Source of the DNA: a virus
DNA: 48,907 nt
Strand: one strand, 5' to 3'
IMG/VR virus record: IMGVR_UViG_3300014501_000007
Span: 1-48,907 of that record
The notes under the pieces are model-generated. The model was not told the DNA's origin. It saw only the letters and a list, made by a program, of their open reading frames with translations, and ran no database searches. This document shows positions 23,257 through 34,813 of the stretch, in pieces. The position numbers and the translations under genes were made by a program. Position 1 is the first letter of the stretch. Each line of letters starts with the position of its first letter.

Positions 23257-24558
23257 ATGAAGATTGCTCTTAATTCATATACGGGATATGGCAGATGGTT
23301 TGAATTCCTCTTGCGGAATGAAGACCATGATGTTACTTATTTTCTGTCAGAACCCAAATTTGAAAATGTTCTATCTGGCCTTCTTCCTCCTCCGCAGATG
23401 GTTAAATTAGATCATAGAATGCATGATGAGAATTATCATGGATCGTTGCCAGATTATAGTAAGTTTGATCTCTCTATATTTGATCTAACAGATAAACCTA
23501 GATGGAGTGATCATTCCGCTCTATTAACCCCTACAATTGGAGATGGCTCTTTTCATTGTATCTTGGAGAATGAACGCTCTAAAGGTATAGAGCTAATGAA
23601 AGAAGTTGGTATCTCGATTCCTCCTACTGAGGAGTTTGAGGATGTCAAAGAGGCGAAAAAATTCATCAAGAAAACTGGAAAAAGATATGTTTTCAAAGCA
23701 GACGGCGGCCAAGATATAGATGCCGCATCTTCTTATGTTAGTAAAGATTCTGAGGATATGCTTGATTATCTTGATAAAGTCTCAGAGCTAGTCCATGATC
23801 ATAAATTCATTCTTCAAGAATTTGTAAAAGGCATTGAAGTTTCAGTAGAAGGTTGGTTTAATGGAACTGATTTCTATTGCTTAAATGCCACTCTAGAAGA
23901 AAAAAAGTTTATGAATGACGGTAAAGGTCCGAATACAGGATGCTCTGGAAATTTAGTCTTTACCTTAGGTCCAGATGCTAAGATCTACAAAGAGGGTCTG
24001 TGGAAAATGCGTGAGTTCCTTCAGGGAACTACTTTTAAAGGAATGCTTGATTTAAATACAATCGTAACTCCAGAAGGAGCTTATGGACTCGAATGGACAC
24101 CGAGATTCGGCTACGATGCATCCGCAACTTTGTATGCAATGTATAGCGGAGGACTTGGAAATTTACTACATGCTTCTGCCACGGGCGGAGTTCCTGAAAA
24201 TAGTTGGAAAGCTGAATTTGGAGCAGCTGTTAGAATTACAGTCCCTCCATATCCCACAGAGATTCGATTGAAGAAAGAAGCAGGAATTCCTGTAAAGGGT
24301 ATAGATCCAGATAATAAAGAAGATATATTAAGGACTTATTTATATGATGTCGCCTTGGATAAAGATAAGCTTGTTACTGCTGGCATATCTGGTTTTGTCG
24401 CTGTTCCTATAGAGATCGGGAATTCTATTCCAGAAGCTTTTGGAAAGTTAGAAGATAGGCTGAAGAAGATACAGATTCCAGATATGCAGTATAGGACAGA
24501 TATAGGAAAAAAGACTTCTGAAAGATATTATGAACTACTTAAACAAGGGTGGATATAA
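23257..24558 (+). CDS. PurD-like ATP-grasp ligase
   Basis: 433 residues. ATP-grasp core motifs run in order: KRYVFKADGGQDIDAAS (near 141-157), FILQEFVKGIEVSVEGWFNG (near 183-202), GPNTGCSGNLVFTL (near 223-236) and GMLDLNTIVTPEGAYGLEW (near 264-282) followed by TPRFGYDA. The order and spacing resemble phosphoribosylamine-glycine ligase (PurD), but the usual GPNTGGMG and RFGDPE are altered, so the substrate is probably different. The enzyme would join a carboxylate to an amine using ATP. It is not near nucleotide genes but is coupled by TAATG to the DUF2778 gene. Confidence 0.75.
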   Translation: MKIALNSYTGYGRWFEFLLRNEDHDVTYFLSEPKFENVLSGLLPPPQMVKLDHRMHDENYHGSLPDYSKFDLSIFDLTDKPRWSDHSALLTPTIGDGSFHCILENERSKGIELMKEVGISIPPTEEFEDVKEAKKFIKKTGKRYVFKADGGQDIDAASSYVSKDSEDMLDYLDKVSELVHDHKFILQEFVKGIEVSVEGWFNGTDFYCLNATLEEKKFMNDGKGPNTGCSGNLVFTLGPDAKIYKEGLWKMREFLQGTTFKGMLDLNTIVTPEGAYGLEWTPRFGYDASATLYAMYSGGLGNLLHASATGGVPENSWKAEFGAAVRITVPPYPTEIRLKKEAGIPVKGIDPDNKEDILRTYLYDVALDKDKLVTAGISGFVAVPIEIGNSIPEAFGKLEDRLKKIQIPDMQYRTDIGKKTSERYYELLKQGWI

Positions 24559-29460: not shown

Positions 29461-30009
29461 CTAGAATTGTTTATCTAAAGGAATATCAAAATCCATAAAC
29501 TGTCTAGCGTCAATATCCGTCCCATAGATAACTGCGAGAGGTTCATACTCTCGCATTATTTTGAGACGGATATTTCCTTTGAAGGGGATCATAGTGCCGA
29601 CGTGAGGCTGGAAGAGGACTTTGGCGCCATTTCTAACTTTGATGTTATTTCTGCGATAAACTGAGTCATTAGATAACCACCATAAAAATTTCTGCCACCA
29701 TCCGGCCTCTATACGTCTACGCCATCTAGTCTTCTCTCCCATAGAGAGCACAGTTCCTAAAGTAGGCAGCGACTTAGAAATCTCTGGAATAACCAGCGTA
29801 GCCCCCTTGCCATTACAAGCTTCACAATCTCTTTCAGCGCCTTCAACTACAATTGATTTAACTTTTCCAGTGCCACCACACTCTTTACACTCATATCCAG
29901 ATTTATAAGAATCCATCATTACTATGATCTTATCTTCAGTAGCATCTAATTGAATTTCTAATTCCACAAGTTCTGCTGCATTATCTTTATCAATATTAAC
30001 TTTACCCAT
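29461..30009 (-). CDS. GroES-like co-chaperonin with inserted DnaJ-type zinc finger
   Basis: 182 residues. The fold of GroES can be followed: DKIIVMMDSYKSG (26-38), a GroEL-binding loop ending TLVIPEISKSLPTLGTVLSM (71-90), then VRNGAKVLFQPHVGTMIPFK (125-144) and IMREYEPLAVIYG (151-163). Inserted in the mobile loop, just before the LVI tripeptide, are two CxxCxGxG repeats (C41-G48, C62-G69), the DnaJ zinc-finger signature. A Trp-rich insert (92-121) replaces the roof hairpin. It should cap the host GroEL for phage protein folding. AGGGGGAG precedes the ATG. It is the last gene of the minus block. Confidence 0.75.
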   Translation of the reverse strand: MGKVNIDKDNAAELVELEIQLDATEDKIIVMMDSYKSGYECKECGGTGKVKSIVVEGAERDCEACNGKGATLVIPEISKSLPTLGTVLSMGEKTRWRRRIEAGWWQKFLWWLSNDSVYRRNNIKVRNGAKVLFQPHVGTMIPFKGNIRLKIMREYEPLAVIYGTDIDARQFMDFDIPLDKQF

Positions 30010-30017
30010 TTCTCCCC

Positions 30018-31292
30018 CTAGTTATTAAGCTTCGGATTAGAACTCAAAACACTTTTTAAAGTCTGCGCCGTCGTAATAGGTGGTGCGACTGCGGGTTTCT
30101 TCAAGATGAAATATGGATTTCCATTCGCAGAACCAGAACTTATACCTAGATAATCAATATTCATCAACATATTAAGAACTCTATCTAGAGTCTCTGGACT
30201 CATATCTTTTATGAGCTGACCCATAAGTTCTGATTTAGAAATTCCTCCGCGCCGCTCTAAGATAAGCTGTACCTTTGCAGTCGCCTCTGCTAAGTCTGAA
30301 TCTCCAACTGCTCTAAATGCCTTTTCTAGATTAAGCTCAACATGCTTAAGACACGTCGCTGCGTTCTGGATGTCTCGATCAGTTATCTCTAGAGTGTCTC
30401 TCTCTGAGAGAGAGAAAATCATAGAAGTCTTCAAGACGTGTGTAAGTAATCGAGACTTAAAATTAACAAGAATCTCTGAGTCATCATCGTCTATATTGAG
30501 CTTTTTATGGAACTGCTCTAGCGCGATGCGCCCCATTGGAGAAAAAGTCATAGAGCCTTTTATATGCGATATAACAGAGAGATCATGCTCTAAATCTGCG
30601 ATGATCTTCTTTCCCTTTTGGGTTTTATCTAGAGGCTCCGGCCATGTGATCTTTTTCGTCGAACGATCTGCAAATACGAAGATCGTTCGTGCGGTAAAGC
30701 CGTCGTTTATATCTTTTCGATCCTTATTAAGTCTAGCAATAAGATTAGGCACACAAGCCCCAATGAGGCTAACACACATATTCTCAATAAATGCGGAACC
30801 GCTGTTTTTAGTGTCATATTCAAATTTATTTTTATCCCACAAGTCACACAATAAAGCAAGCATCCAATCACTACTAGTGATAAGAGTCTGAAGCTCAGTA
30901 GAGACAAGTGTTGCAGAAGAGTCTTTAGCAATTACAATCCCTCCATTCTGTATTTGAGGTAATCCAGGAAATCCATCTGCGAGCCTCTTTAAAATCTTCT
31001 CTGCTGTCACTCTATCAGAGATACTATTTATAAGCTTAAGTCTTTCAGCAAAAGCATAGACGTATCTAAGAGCTTCACCTTTTCCGGTGCCAGGTGGACC
31101 AGTTAGCACGACATAAGTATTCGGATATATCGTATAAGTCGCTCTATCTATAGACACGTTGTTCTTAGCTATAGCTCCTATCATAGAAATCGCCGCCCAT
31201 ATATGAAATTGAGAGGGAGATTGAGATATAGGTGCTACTGCCTCAGCATACGAGCTGATCCAATTACTTTTTAAGAGACGCTTACTTGACAA
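30018..31292 (-). CDS. DUF3987-like ATPase, replicative helicase candidate
   Basis: 424 residues with a TTG start preceded by GAGG. The core starts with SPSQFHIWAAISMIGAIAKN and a Walker A GPPGTGKGE near residue 66, where Gly replaces the usual Ser/Thr after Lys. A later segment (FIENMCVSLIGACVPNLIA) and an Arg-bearing stretch (GFTARTIFVFADRS) follow. The C-terminus has a winged-helix look (RRGGISKSELMGQLIK). The pattern matches phage DUF3987-type proteins placed with family A polymerases, where they probably act as helicase or primase-helicase. No separate primase was found. Confidence 0.65.
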   Translation of the reverse strand: MSSKRLLKSNWISSYAEAVAPISQSPSQFHIWAAISMIGAIAKNNVSIDRATYTIYPNTYVVLTGPPGTGKGEALRYVYAFAERLKLINSISDRVTAEKILKRLADGFPGLPQIQNGGIVIAKDSSATLVSTELQTLITSSDWMLALLCDLWDKNKFEYDTKNSGSAFIENMCVSLIGACVPNLIARLNKDRKDINDGFTARTIFVFADRSTKKITWPEPLDKTQKGKKIIADLEHDLSVISHIKGSMTFSPMGRIALEQFHKKLNIDDDDSEILVNFKSRLLTHVLKTSMIFSLSERDTLEITDRDIQNAATCLKHVELNLEKAFRAVGDSDLAEATAKVQLILERRGGISKSELMGQLIKDMSPETLDRVLNMLMNIDYLGISSGSANGNPYFILKKPAVAPPITTAQTLKSVLSSNPKLNN

Positions 31293-31313: not shown

Positions 31314-31544
31314 TTAAGCTTTTTTGATATCTGTAAATGGATTCGCGTTTAAAATTTGCGGCTGCTGCATTCCTGCAAAAGATATATTTAAAAAATGTCC
31401 ACATTCTCCGCAACCGAATATTGTTGCGATAACTCCATTGTTAAAAGTCATCATATCATTAGTAACTAGAGCTAAATCTTTCTTGCAGTTTGGACAGCGA
31501 GCTTTTTTAGGTTGTTTTGGTAGACCGTCAATAATATCAGACAT
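31314..31544 (-). CDS. small zinc-ribbon protein, 76 aa
   Basis: Two CxxC pairs (CPNC near 17-20 and CGEC near 45-48) make a zinc ribbon. The flanks are short and flexible. The ATG overlaps the previous stop as TAATG, coupling it to the 73-residue gene. It lies between polymerase and ATPase genes, so a role with replication proteins is plausible but not shown. Confidence 0.65.
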   Translation of the reverse strand: MSDIIDGLPKQPKKARCPNCKKDLALVTNDMMTFNNGVIATIFGCGECGHFLNISFAGMQQPQILNANPFTDIKKA

Positions 31545-31765
31545 TAAGAATCTCTTCTTTCTTCAGATTTATTGTTCGCAGCGGTAAGTTCGTCTAAATA
31601 ATCCAGGAACACCAGGATGTTACCGGGTGTCGCTACCTGAGCAAACTCCTTAATCACTTCTGGATTGCAGATGTCGCCCCTCTCCCATCGTAACCACTCC
31701 GTCCTGCAACTTTCAGCTTTAGTACGCAGGAGTTTTAGAATCTTGTCCCGTTCCGTATCAGGCAT
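31544..31765 (-). CDS. small helical hypothetical protein, 73 aa
   Basis: Charged helical protein starting MPDTERDKILKLLRTKAESC and ending LTAANNKSEERRDS. The start overlaps the polymerase stop by 8 nt and the stop overlaps the next start by one base. The family is not recognised. Tight coupling on both sides favours expression with the polymerase. Confidence 0.6.
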   Translation of the reverse strand: MPDTERDKILKLLRTKAESCRTEWLRWERGDICNPEVIKEFAQVATPGNILVFLDYLDELTAANNKSEERRDS

Positions 31766-33242
31766 TTATAATCTCCTCTCTCTTCTCATCCATTTCTTGT
31801 TCTCTTAGTTTAACAACTTTCTCTAGCGCCTCACAGACACCAGCGTAGGAGAGGTCTTTGATCTTTACAGTTGTCGCAAAATCAAATCCTATTTCTGCTT
31901 CGATCGGTATATTGATTCTAATGCCATTATAGAATACAAACTCTCTTTCAAATGCCCTAATGGTGTGCTCGAGAGCTGTCCAGATTCTATCAGATGAATG
32001 AGGTAAATCCTGCACAATGGAGTCGTGTCCTTCTTGGACAATGAAACTTGTATCTCTAGCTGAATTATTTTCCAAGTGAAAAACAGCAAAGCCAGTATTA
32101 TCACCAACAGTTGATTGTGGGACATATGCGTAAGCCTCGTTTAGAATAGAGTAGTTTGTATCATTTGGTCGAAGTCCTAGAAACTGCCTCTGTCTTCCAG
32201 CAGGAGTTTCTAAAACCCTAGATTTATAGAGTTGCTCTTGGATGTATTTATGAAAGACGTTCTCTGTAGATGGATCGAATGCTGTAAGCTTATCGAGAAG
32301 ATGTTGACACATTGTTGGATTAATACTAAAGCCTTCTTGAGCCAGACTATCGCTCATCCGATTCCCACGCATCCCGTAGTTTTTCGCGTGCCCGCACTTC
32401 TTCCCAAGATAGTATTCCATCCCATCTTTCCACTCCCCTTCGGACTTGACGGATAAATCTAAACCAAATAAGAACGCAGCCCGTTTTAAATGACGGTTTA
32501 ACCCGGTTTGTAATTCTGTAAGTGCGCTTGTATTTCCAGAAAGTGCTAAAACCGGCCATTCCTCCGCTCCCTTCTGATCCACCATTAAGAAGATACCCCC
32601 TGGTCTGGCAACCAGACACCTTCTAAATGTTTTAGCAATCGACCCATGTTTTGGAAAGTTTTGTGCGTTATTTCCAAACCCGAATGTATGCTTTTTAGAT
32701 GATCTTCTGCCAGTAACAGTCCCTGCAACATTGTAAGAGGATAGATATAAAAGAAGATCATCTGGTGTTTTATAAAGCCTTGCGTTAAGATAAGAGCTTT
32801 TGATTTTCCCCAATTCACGTATTTTAAGGATTGCTCGGATTGCTGGGTCGCCGCCGGCGTAGTTAAATTGATTCTTGACGAGAATTTTTTGGAGCGCAAG
32901 TTCGGAGGATGAGAACTTTTGGTCATAGTTTCCTTCGGAGTCTTTCTTTGTTATTTTTGGAATCTCATATCCAAGTTCTTGCATCTTCTTGACTAGGGTT
33001 CTTTGGCCGTTGTTGGCATTGATATTAACTGAGCCTTCTGAGCCATCATCATTCTCTGCGCCGAGATAAACTGTGCAATTCCATTGAGTCGTAGCGATTT
33101 CTAGATTCTTTTTAATCTCTTCATTGACGAAGATTTTAGCTTCTTTTAGCCGTAGGGGATCGACACAGATTCCTCGATTTCCTATGCGGTTGTAGATGGC
33201 CTGGAGAGAGTGGAGATAGGAGGAGGTTATTTTTTCAATCAT
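31758..33242 (-). CDS. family A DNA polymerase, polymerase domain only
   Basis: 494 residues from the ATG at 33242 (ATGA overlap with the HNH gene). A longer frame to 33278 merely reads the HNH gene end. Motif A is LMVDQKGAEEWPVLAL with the catalytic Asp, motif B is HAKNYGMRGNRMSDSLAQ, and motif C is EGHDSIVQD with Ser in place of the usual Glu. TGRRSSKKH with the nearby NFPKHG matches the template-binding region. The exonuclease part is a separate gene at 33680-34813. Joined end to end, the two cover one complete Pol I-type protein with nothing missing at the linker. Confidence 0.9.
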   Translation of the reverse strand: MIEKITSSYLHSLQAIYNRIGNRGICVDPLRLKEAKIFVNEEIKKNLEIATTQWNCTVYLGAENDDGSEGSVNINANNGQRTLVKKMQELGYEIPKITKKDSEGNYDQKFSSSELALQKILVKNQFNYAGGDPAIRAILKIRELGKIKSSYLNARLYKTPDDLLLYLSSYNVAGTVTGRRSSKKHTFGFGNNAQNFPKHGSIAKTFRRCLVARPGGIFLMVDQKGAEEWPVLALSGNTSALTELQTGLNRHLKRAAFLFGLDLSVKSEGEWKDGMEYYLGKKCGHAKNYGMRGNRMSDSLAQEGFSINPTMCQHLLDKLTAFDPSTENVFHKYIQEQLYKSRVLETPAGRQRQFLGLRPNDTNYSILNEAYAYVPQSTVGDNTGFAVFHLENNSARDTSFIVQEGHDSIVQDLPHSSDRIWTALEHTIRAFEREFVFYNGIRINIPIEAEIGFDFATTVKIKDLSYAGVCEALEKVVKLREQEMDEKREEIINA

Positions 33243-33679
33243 TCTAGTCCGCGCTCTTTTAATTCTTCTTCTTTCCATACTTCAAATCTTATAATTCTTG
33301 ATACATGAAGTTGTGAAATTCCATATTTCTGCGCTATTCTTCTTTGAGTTTCTTTTTTACAGTCTTCTCTTATCTTTCTTGCTATTTCCATGTTGATCTT
33401 AACATGTTTTGATCTTCTTGTATTTTCTTTGTGTGTTACAGGTTTTAAATGTTCTGGATTAATACAAATTTTAACATCGCAAAGATGATCTAGTTCTAAT
33501 TCAGAAGGAACAGCTCCATATTTTTGCTCATAAAAATAAATATGAGCAAGAATATTTTTTTGTTTTATGTTATCCCAGTAATATCCATAACCAGTATGGT
33601 GAGGAGAACCTCCGTATATATGACATGAAGTTATATATCCTCTATCTTCTTCAGTATAAAGCTTAAAAATTTTTGGCAT
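33239..33679 (-). CDS. HNH homing endonuclease-like protein with HTH, inserted in the polymerase locus
   Basis: 146 residues. The HNH motif is LDHLCDVKICINPEHLKPVT (His65, Asn74, His77). A helix-turn-helix follows at 111-131 (TQRRIAQKYGISQLHVSRII). The gene is more AT-rich than its neighbours and lies exactly between the exonuclease and polymerase genes. Its last residues, FEVWKEEELKERGLE, mimic the end of the exonuclease protein (MEVFEQQEIEIKERGIE). The ribosome site GAGGAA lies in the exonuclease end. Probably a mobile free-standing endonuclease. No intron features were seen. Confidence 0.8.
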   Translation of the reverse strand: MPKIFKLYTEEDRGYITSCHIYGGSPHHTGYGYYWDNIKQKNILAHIYFYEQKYGAVPSELELDHLCDVKICINPEHLKPVTHKENTRRSKHVKINMEIARKIREDCKKETQRRIAQKYGISQLHVSRIIRFEVWKEEELKERGLE

Positions 33680-34813
33680 TTATTCAATTCCTCGTTCTTT
33701 TATTTCTATTTCTTGTTGTTCAAATACTTCCATTGTAACGGTGACATCTAGACAATTATATCTTCTTAATCCTGACATATCCTTCATTGACCATTGTTTT
33801 CCATCTTCTTTATAAAAAGGTTGTCTAGTATATTGTCGAGTCATGAATTGCAGCGAATGAGGTAATTCTGCCCAAAGAATATGATGTCTTATTCGAGTAT
33901 CAACAATATTTGATAAAGGAATGTCAAAACCTAGACAATTTAATCTTGACACATCGAATTCAAAAAAGTTCTGCCCTAATATTTTCTTTTCTTTAAAGAG
34001 TTTATCTAATTTTCTCCATAAAATAATCTGTTCATATTCAGATTCCCTAAATAAGGGGAAACTTATCCCCAAATCACGAGAAGAAGCAATACCAATACAA
34101 GTAGGATAACCAATATGGGGATAAAAGAAACTGTTCTTTTTGCAATAAATCGTTTCAATATCCACAGAAAGTAAGCTACAAGAATGCTCGAAATAATCCA
34201 ACAGCTTAAGAATTTCAAAAAAAGAAAGATCATATAAGAGCTTTCTATCTGGAAGAGGTTGGATGAAGCCATTTTGTTTATGGTAGTCTAGTTCCGATTT
34301 CGCTTTTCCAAGATCCAAGGAAACGATAATATCACGAAGACTCCAATCAGCCATGATGGAATCAGGGAGATAAGATGGAATAACATAATGAGGATAAGTA
34401 AGCAGATTGCTGCAAAGTAAAGAACCAGCGTACTTATCAAGAGGAGTTTCGTCTTCGTTTTCGATGAGAAGCCCGGCAATTTCTCTTGCACTTCTTCGTC
34501 CTTTTCTTGTATTCGCATCTCGAACCTCTTTGCACAAATAGGATGATGTATTCCCTAGAGCTATAATCAGTGGCGGCTTATAATGATTAAGATCATTCTC
34601 TATAATTCGATAACTGGACTTATCCTCTAAATCTGGCTTTCTGCAAGTTACATAGTAGTCTGTAATTTCAGCTTCTTTCATCATCTTATCAAAGACGTAT
34701 CCTAAACCAGAAGAAAAGAGAAAGCCTTTCTCCGCGTCCTTTTGATAAGGCTCATCTACCGTAACCCAGATTTGAGAATGTGGATCGCCTTTAGAATGAA
34801 TCTCTTTAGGCAT
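33680..34813 (-). CDS. UDG-like domain fused to a 3'-5' exonuclease (split PolA N-terminal part)
   Basis: 377 residues. The N-terminal 165 resemble a degenerate uracil-DNA glycosylase fold (WVTVDEPYQKDAEKGFLFSS and PPLIIALGNTSSYL) without the normal GEAPG loop, so glycosylase activity is doubtful. The C-terminal part is a DnaQ-like proofreading exonuclease: Exo I LSVDIETI (Asp218, Glu220), Exo II LGQNFFEFD (Asp287), Exo III YNCLDVTVT (Tyr352, Asp356). It provides proofreading for the polymerase encoded at 31758-33242. The start overlaps the DUF4326 gene by 8 nt, behind GAGG. Confidence 0.8.
   Translation of the reverse strand: MPKEIHSKGDPHSQIWVTVDEPYQKDAEKGFLFSSGLGYVFDKMMKEAEITDYYVTCRKPDLEDKSSYRIIENDLNHYKPPLIIALGNTSSYLCKEVRDANTRKGRRSAREIAGLLIENEDETPLDKYAGSLLCSNLLTYPHYVIPSYLPDSIMADWSLRDIIVSLDLGKAKSELDYHKQNGFIQPLPDRKLLYDLSFFEILKLLDYFEHSCSLLSVDIETIYCKKNSFFYPHIGYPTCIGIASSRDLGISFPLFRESEYEQIILWRKLDKLFKEKKILGQNFFEFDVSRLNCLGFDIPLSNIVDTRIRHHILWAELPHSLQFMTRQYTRQPFYKEDGKQWSMKDMSGLRRYNCLDVTVTMEVFEQQEIEIKERGIE

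Follow-up and report, generated by a model that had tools for sequence, protein, structure and literature searches.

GroES lids are usually seen as passive caps whose mobile loop merely docks on GroEL. A small gene in a phage record of 48,907 nucleotides, analyzed over its full length (the window), raises the question of whether such a lid can carry part of a second chaperone. In the first-pass annotation, its product was read as a co-chaperonin of the GroES type whose mobile loop has a DnaJ-type zinc finger built into it. That reading is upheld by profile scores, structure prediction, and a large conserved family. The plus-strand reading of the locus is riddled with stops, and the true open reading frame lies on the minus strand (Table 1).

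Table 1. Positions of the lid gene, the segments of its product, and two neighboring genes in the window
Feature	Coordinates	Strand	Details
GroES gene with predicted zinc finger, complete	29461-30009	minus	182 aa; ATG at 30009, stop 29461-29463
Shine-Dalgarno-like GGGGGAG	30012-30018	minus	2 nt ahead of the ATG; overlaps the stop codon of DUF3987, the gene upstream; read from sequence
First barrel strand and start of mobile loop	29896-29955	minus	residues 19-38, ...LDATEDKIIVMMDSYKSG
Predicted zinc-finger insert	29797-29895	minus	residues 39-71, within the GroES mobile loop
Outer motif I	29866-29889	minus	CKECGGTG, residues 41-48
Outer motif IV	29803-29826	minus	CEACNGKG, residues 62-69
LVI tripeptide	29788-29796	minus	residues 72-74, equivalent to GroES I25-V26-L27; GroEL contact
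Trp-rich insert	29644-29724	minus	residues 96-122, five W, at the roof-hairpin position
C-terminal half of barrel	29524-29643	minus	residues 123-162, best Cpn10 match
C-terminal extension	29464-29523	minus	residues 163-182, past the GroES end
DUF3987 primase/helicase-like gene	30018-31292	minus	upstream, co-directional; conserved neighbor in clade A
DNA polymerase A	31758-33278	minus	independent family bait

The GroES core and its docking loop

The stretch from KSG (residues 36-38) to L72-V73-I74 encloses two CxxCxGxG motifs, C41/C44 and C62/C65, and the protein's four cysteines all fall inside this insert. In the finger-free core, KSG meets GGxLVxP at the excision point, which immediately precedes the equivalents of GroES I25-V26-L27. 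I25 and L27 of GroES are essential for GroEL binding, with either I25A or L27A lowering affinity more than 1000-fold (PMC5575113). Among 39 distinct relatives, the first position of the tripeptide is L in 22, I in 15, and V in 2, and the third is I, V, L, or M in 34 and T or A in 5. Between the tripeptide and the next strand, the limb aligns with GroES without gaps; the distance from docking site to barrel therefore seems unchanged. Because this limb keeps its GroES length, the insert is not merely a longer stalk, and the idea of a finger that makes the stalk longer and the cage larger, an effect proposed for gp31, is the less likely reading.

Excision of the cysteine insert raised the Pfam Cpn10 score instead of dropping it to background, from 20.9 bits for the intact protein (cut-off 21.1), which matched best over residues 120-160, to 25.9 bits (E 1e-5). 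Without both the Cys and Trp inserts, it reached 32.6 bits (E 8.5e-8) and covered profile positions 4-92 of 93. Cpn10 was matched by 26 of 30 relatives at E 0.01 (best 8.3e-10). A finger-free core profile built from seven sequences aligned end to end with co-chaperonins in the PDB, including Cpn20 (3e-20), H. thermophilus GroES (1.6e-11), and E. coli GroES (3e-4). PHROG 3188 (phage co-chaperonin GroES) was matched by 18 of 30 relatives, with the window protein falling short of E 1e-3. PHROG 8897 (E 3e-5) was set aside as another family, since only three members matched it. Profile searches with the window protein and the 30 relatives found neither a J domain nor a C-terminal substrate-binding domain of DnaJ.

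An AlphaFold model of the monomer, made from a 30-sequence alignment, has a mean pLDDT of 79.7 and contains the GroES beta-barrel. The top Foldseek matches of this model are all Cpn10/GroES (probability 1.00), with T4 gp31 (1g31) at rank 8.

A five-tryptophan insert had also been described as replacing the roof hairpin. It is present in the window protein, where all five tryptophans fall in residues 96-111, but it is not a shared design: the roof is short or absent in most relatives. The closest one, L014, has no Trp-rich insert; long inserts of other kinds are present in L015 and L016, and most have none. The sole look-alike is a polymerase-fetched protein (L217:7229-7949), with a similar Trp/Arg-rich roof stretch (WFRKGWWFYRK) and differences in much else. 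AlphaFold modeled the window's roof insert as helices with moderate confidence; as a guess, it might form an aromatic surface atop the dome. The C-terminal extension beyond the GroES end is present in relatives too.

Cysteine sets and evolution of the finger

Finger cysteines number four in 9 of the 39 proteins, eight in 29, and nine in 1, and their occurrence in sets of four is an indirect hint that the finger may bind zinc. Their spacings are close to symmetric (3,8,3,n,3,8,3, for instance). A hairpin arranged as in DnaJ, whose outer zinc site is made by motifs I and IV and whose inner site is made by motifs II and III, would be expected to show this. Eight-cysteine fingers are 47-82 residues long and occur in about three quarters of relatives. 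Judged from its motifs, the window protein is the minimal, outer-only form, with one predicted zinc center because only the two outer motifs are present. It does not have the four-motif layout with two zinc centers; L016, L036, and L041 have four CxxC pairs.

The Pfam model DnaJ_CXXCXGXG gave 17.5 bits with the intact window protein and 20.7 bits with the isolated finger, both below its cut-off of 32.7, and was matched by 19 of 30 relatives at E 0.01 (best 5.5e-6). A monomer model of the eight-cysteine relative L041 has a pLDDT of 82.6, with 93-94 in the finger. This single chain matched Cpn10, GroES, and gp31 as well as the DnaJ Cys-rich domain 1exk (probability 0.99) and BSD2 (probability 1.00, 34% identity).

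A maximum-likelihood tree of the finger-free core has seven changes between the four- and eight-cysteine states, at least six of them forced by well-supported branches, and the outer four cysteines are kept throughout. The inner knuckle has therefore been gained or lost as a unit, and the outer one never lost. The finger tip is highly variable across relatives and between clades, which could reflect varied clients or little constraint. Between related pairs, pS is 0.54-1.05 (near saturation) and amino-acid change is far lower, in finger and barrel alike; the finger is under weaker constraint in the pair of the window protein and L014 (dN/dS about 0.33).

Family extent and phage lineage

Searches with single sequences found few relatives, and none in bacterial genomes; aligning the window protein with one relative opened the family and retrieved 36 IMG/VR loci. 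This retrieval used the finger start [YF]KSGYEC as bait, so the invariance of this motif among them is partly built in. Baits from the C-terminal half brought 12 further loci, with finger motifs in 12 of 12 newly read proteins or fragments (two end at a contig edge). With DNA polymerase as bait, the lid gene was found on the same strand in 40 of 40 loci having at least 2.6 kb downstream, giving 32 distinct proteins; every one with a delimitable finger has 4, 8, or 9 finger cysteines. The variants KSGLEC, LSGFEC, and RTGFEC were brought in by the finger-free baits (C-terminal halves, large terminase [TerL], and DNA polymerase). The TerL bait also fetched many more distant phages without a lid gene nearby, and linkage to the lid gene thus holds for closer relatives only. 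The insertion accordingly recurs in other phages, with the same layout in 39 distinct relatives, also when the bait was a different gene.

The lid genes fall into two clades, A (which includes the window) and B. In clade A, the lid gene follows DNA polymerase and DUF3987 in that order, and these genes converge with putative tail genes; loci that reach far enough add an ATP-grasp gene on the converging side. In clade B, the lid gene is upstream of TerL. Between the window and clade B, TerL is 30-44% and capsid 38-52% identical, and by these two markers the clades are one uncultured phage lineage. The ATP-grasp protein of the window (23257-24558, plus strand) is PurD-related (GARS_A, E 1.5e-13), and many clade A relatives have copies with 47-63% identity close to their tail genes. 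The DNA polymerase of the window is split into an exonuclease and a polymerase gene (31758-34813, minus strand), with an HNH-like open reading frame (33239-33679) between them and a weak uracil-DNA-glycosylase-like stretch in the exonuclease gene. A 76-aa protein with two CxxC pairs and no Pfam match is encoded between the polymerase and DUF3987 genes (31314-31544, minus strand).

Bacterial genomes yielded one match, in a phage-like contig with the same gene order in a Sulfuriferula MAG, possibly placed there by a binning error. No finger-bearing GroES was found among 50,697 phage records. Matches in the cultured Bacteroides phage DAC19 and phage DSL-LC05 are plain short GroES proteins. In DAC19 (L047:3953-5852), the GroES-like gene is annotated as hypothetical and is followed by a gene for 540 aa that may encode GroEL. 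A match to Acinetobacter phage MD-2021a came from bacterial contigs filed as phage, with bacterial groSL; CAKLQH020000021.1, filed under this name, looks chromosomal (groSL, pckG, dgkA, glpQ). A jumbo-phage protein (L048:2044-3453, LR745206.1) was rejected as an unrelated CxxCxGxG array that is not GroES-like; it has a long run of such repeats. The remaining cultured-phage matches were weak and at chance level.

Pfam, PHROGs, and NCBIfam recognize the two halves separately and not as a combination, and no paper pairing GroES with a zinc finger was found in the searchable literature, a body that leaves out most subscription papers and preprints. Both halves are already known, and the hybrid is apparently a new combination, as had been suspected.

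Possible roles and known counterparts

No GroEL gene was found in 27 phage records, no Hsp70 gene in 21, and no second Cpn10 gene in any phage record examined, several of these records being fragments. Given this lack of GroEL, the phage lid most likely caps the GroEL of its host, as gp31 does; together with the conserved tripeptide, it also makes a GroEL cap with a client-binding finger a fitting interpretation. We put at about even the chance that the protein is a phage GroES-type lid for host GroEL with a DnaJ-type zinc hairpin on each mobile loop, the hairpins holding or steering clients. A ring of seven would dock on host GroEL via the tripeptide, replacing host GroES in the manner of T4 gp31. 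The outer two CxxC pairs would together coordinate a single zinc and seal the finger at its base, placing seven rigid hairpins where the lid and apical domains meet. In the least certain step, the hairpins would hold or steer unfolded phage proteins, comparable to DnaJ zinc center I, and deliver them to the cage upon lid closure.

DnaJ zinc center I is reported as essential for substrate binding and center II for interaction with DnaK (Linke 2003, as cited in PMC4428491). If the outer site corresponds by position to center I, the part that is always kept would be the substrate-binding one. Against client-holding fingers, the DnaJ zinc domain contributes only in part to substrate binding, and DnaJ without this domain still works as a co-chaperone (PMC4428491). 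Some holding activity of ZnJ6, an algal finger protein, is likewise independent of its zinc cysteines (PMC7865324). That the phage fingers hold clients and hand them over is our inference. A more far-reaching proposal, somewhat short of an even chance, is that Hsp10 and Hsp40 principles are fused in one lid of a widespread lineage, with 7 or 14 zinc centers ringing the cage mouth, taking and handing over phage clients, and redirecting GroEL to virus proteins.

The same GroEL lid could use its finger only as a loop stiffener, a zinc-pinned hairpin that pre-orders the otherwise disordered mobile loop, strengthens binding to host GroEL, and so lets the phage lid outcompete host GroES without touching clients. 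The position of the finger directly before the conserved tripeptide agrees with this, as do the variable tip and the permanence of the predicted outer zinc site, the one nearest the loop. A stiffener needs no second zinc site, yet fingers of 47-82 residues with eight cysteines are retained in about three quarters of relatives; we consider this account unlikely, if far from negligible. Zinc fingers are common protein-binding modules, and the finger might be an adaptor that binds an additional surface of the host chaperonin or one phage protein, such as a capsid or DNA-replication protein, and so tunes the choice of partner. The tip differs between clades, and so does the setting of the gene, among replication genes in A and ahead of TerL in B, both of which speak for an adaptor; even so, we rate it as improbable.

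It is more doubtful still, and in our estimate highly improbable, that the GroES fold no longer works with GroEL and now serves in a structural role, in nucleic-acid binding, or as an ADH-like N-terminal domain. The sequence is far from cellular GroES, no GroEL gene adjoins, and ADH_N has weak matches in 3 of 30 members, but the tripeptide is in register with GroES and the Cpn10 and NCBIfam GroES models outscore ADH. The structural zinc loop of ADH follows the VGDRV strand and is not at the mobile-loop position. An ADH/MDR origin was rejected, with Cpn10 as the best match and a chain too short for a Rossmann domain.

The module of a second chaperone has been retained at precisely the docking loop throughout a whole lineage of phages, and it comes in two discrete sizes. 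Should the fingers contact clients, the lid would itself share in client choice. Such a protein would also lend itself naturally as a modular lid with which to re-target GroEL for protein production. The finger-bearing lid also illustrates how much chaperone variety uncultured phages conceal.

Among known systems, T4 gp31 is likewise a phage lid with a GroES barrel, and it is a structural match (1g31). It works with host GroEL, has a mobile loop of 22 residues compared to 16 in GroES, is without roof loops, and is needed for folding of capsid protein gp23 (PMC6318259). Descriptions of gp31 mention no zinc finger, whereas the loop here bears a Cys insert of 32-82 residues; the record of PHROG 3188 describes no finger either. 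With GroES/Cpn10 (PF00166), the phage protein shares the barrel, the mobile-loop tripeptide, and the G/P pattern after it, and differs in its finger insert, its C-terminal extension, and its missing or replaced roof. The DnaJ Cys-rich domain (PF00684) and chloroplast BSD2 have the same CxxCxGxG motifs, with the four-motif form seen in relatives and a structural match to L041; the phage finger is instead a loop insert without a J domain or DnaJ C-terminal domains, and its window form has only the two outer motifs. Anti-TRAP is a small DnaJ-like zinc protein with two CxxCxGxG motifs and a weak profile match, but it is a stand-alone protein of 53 residues that inhibits TRAP and has no GroES barrel.
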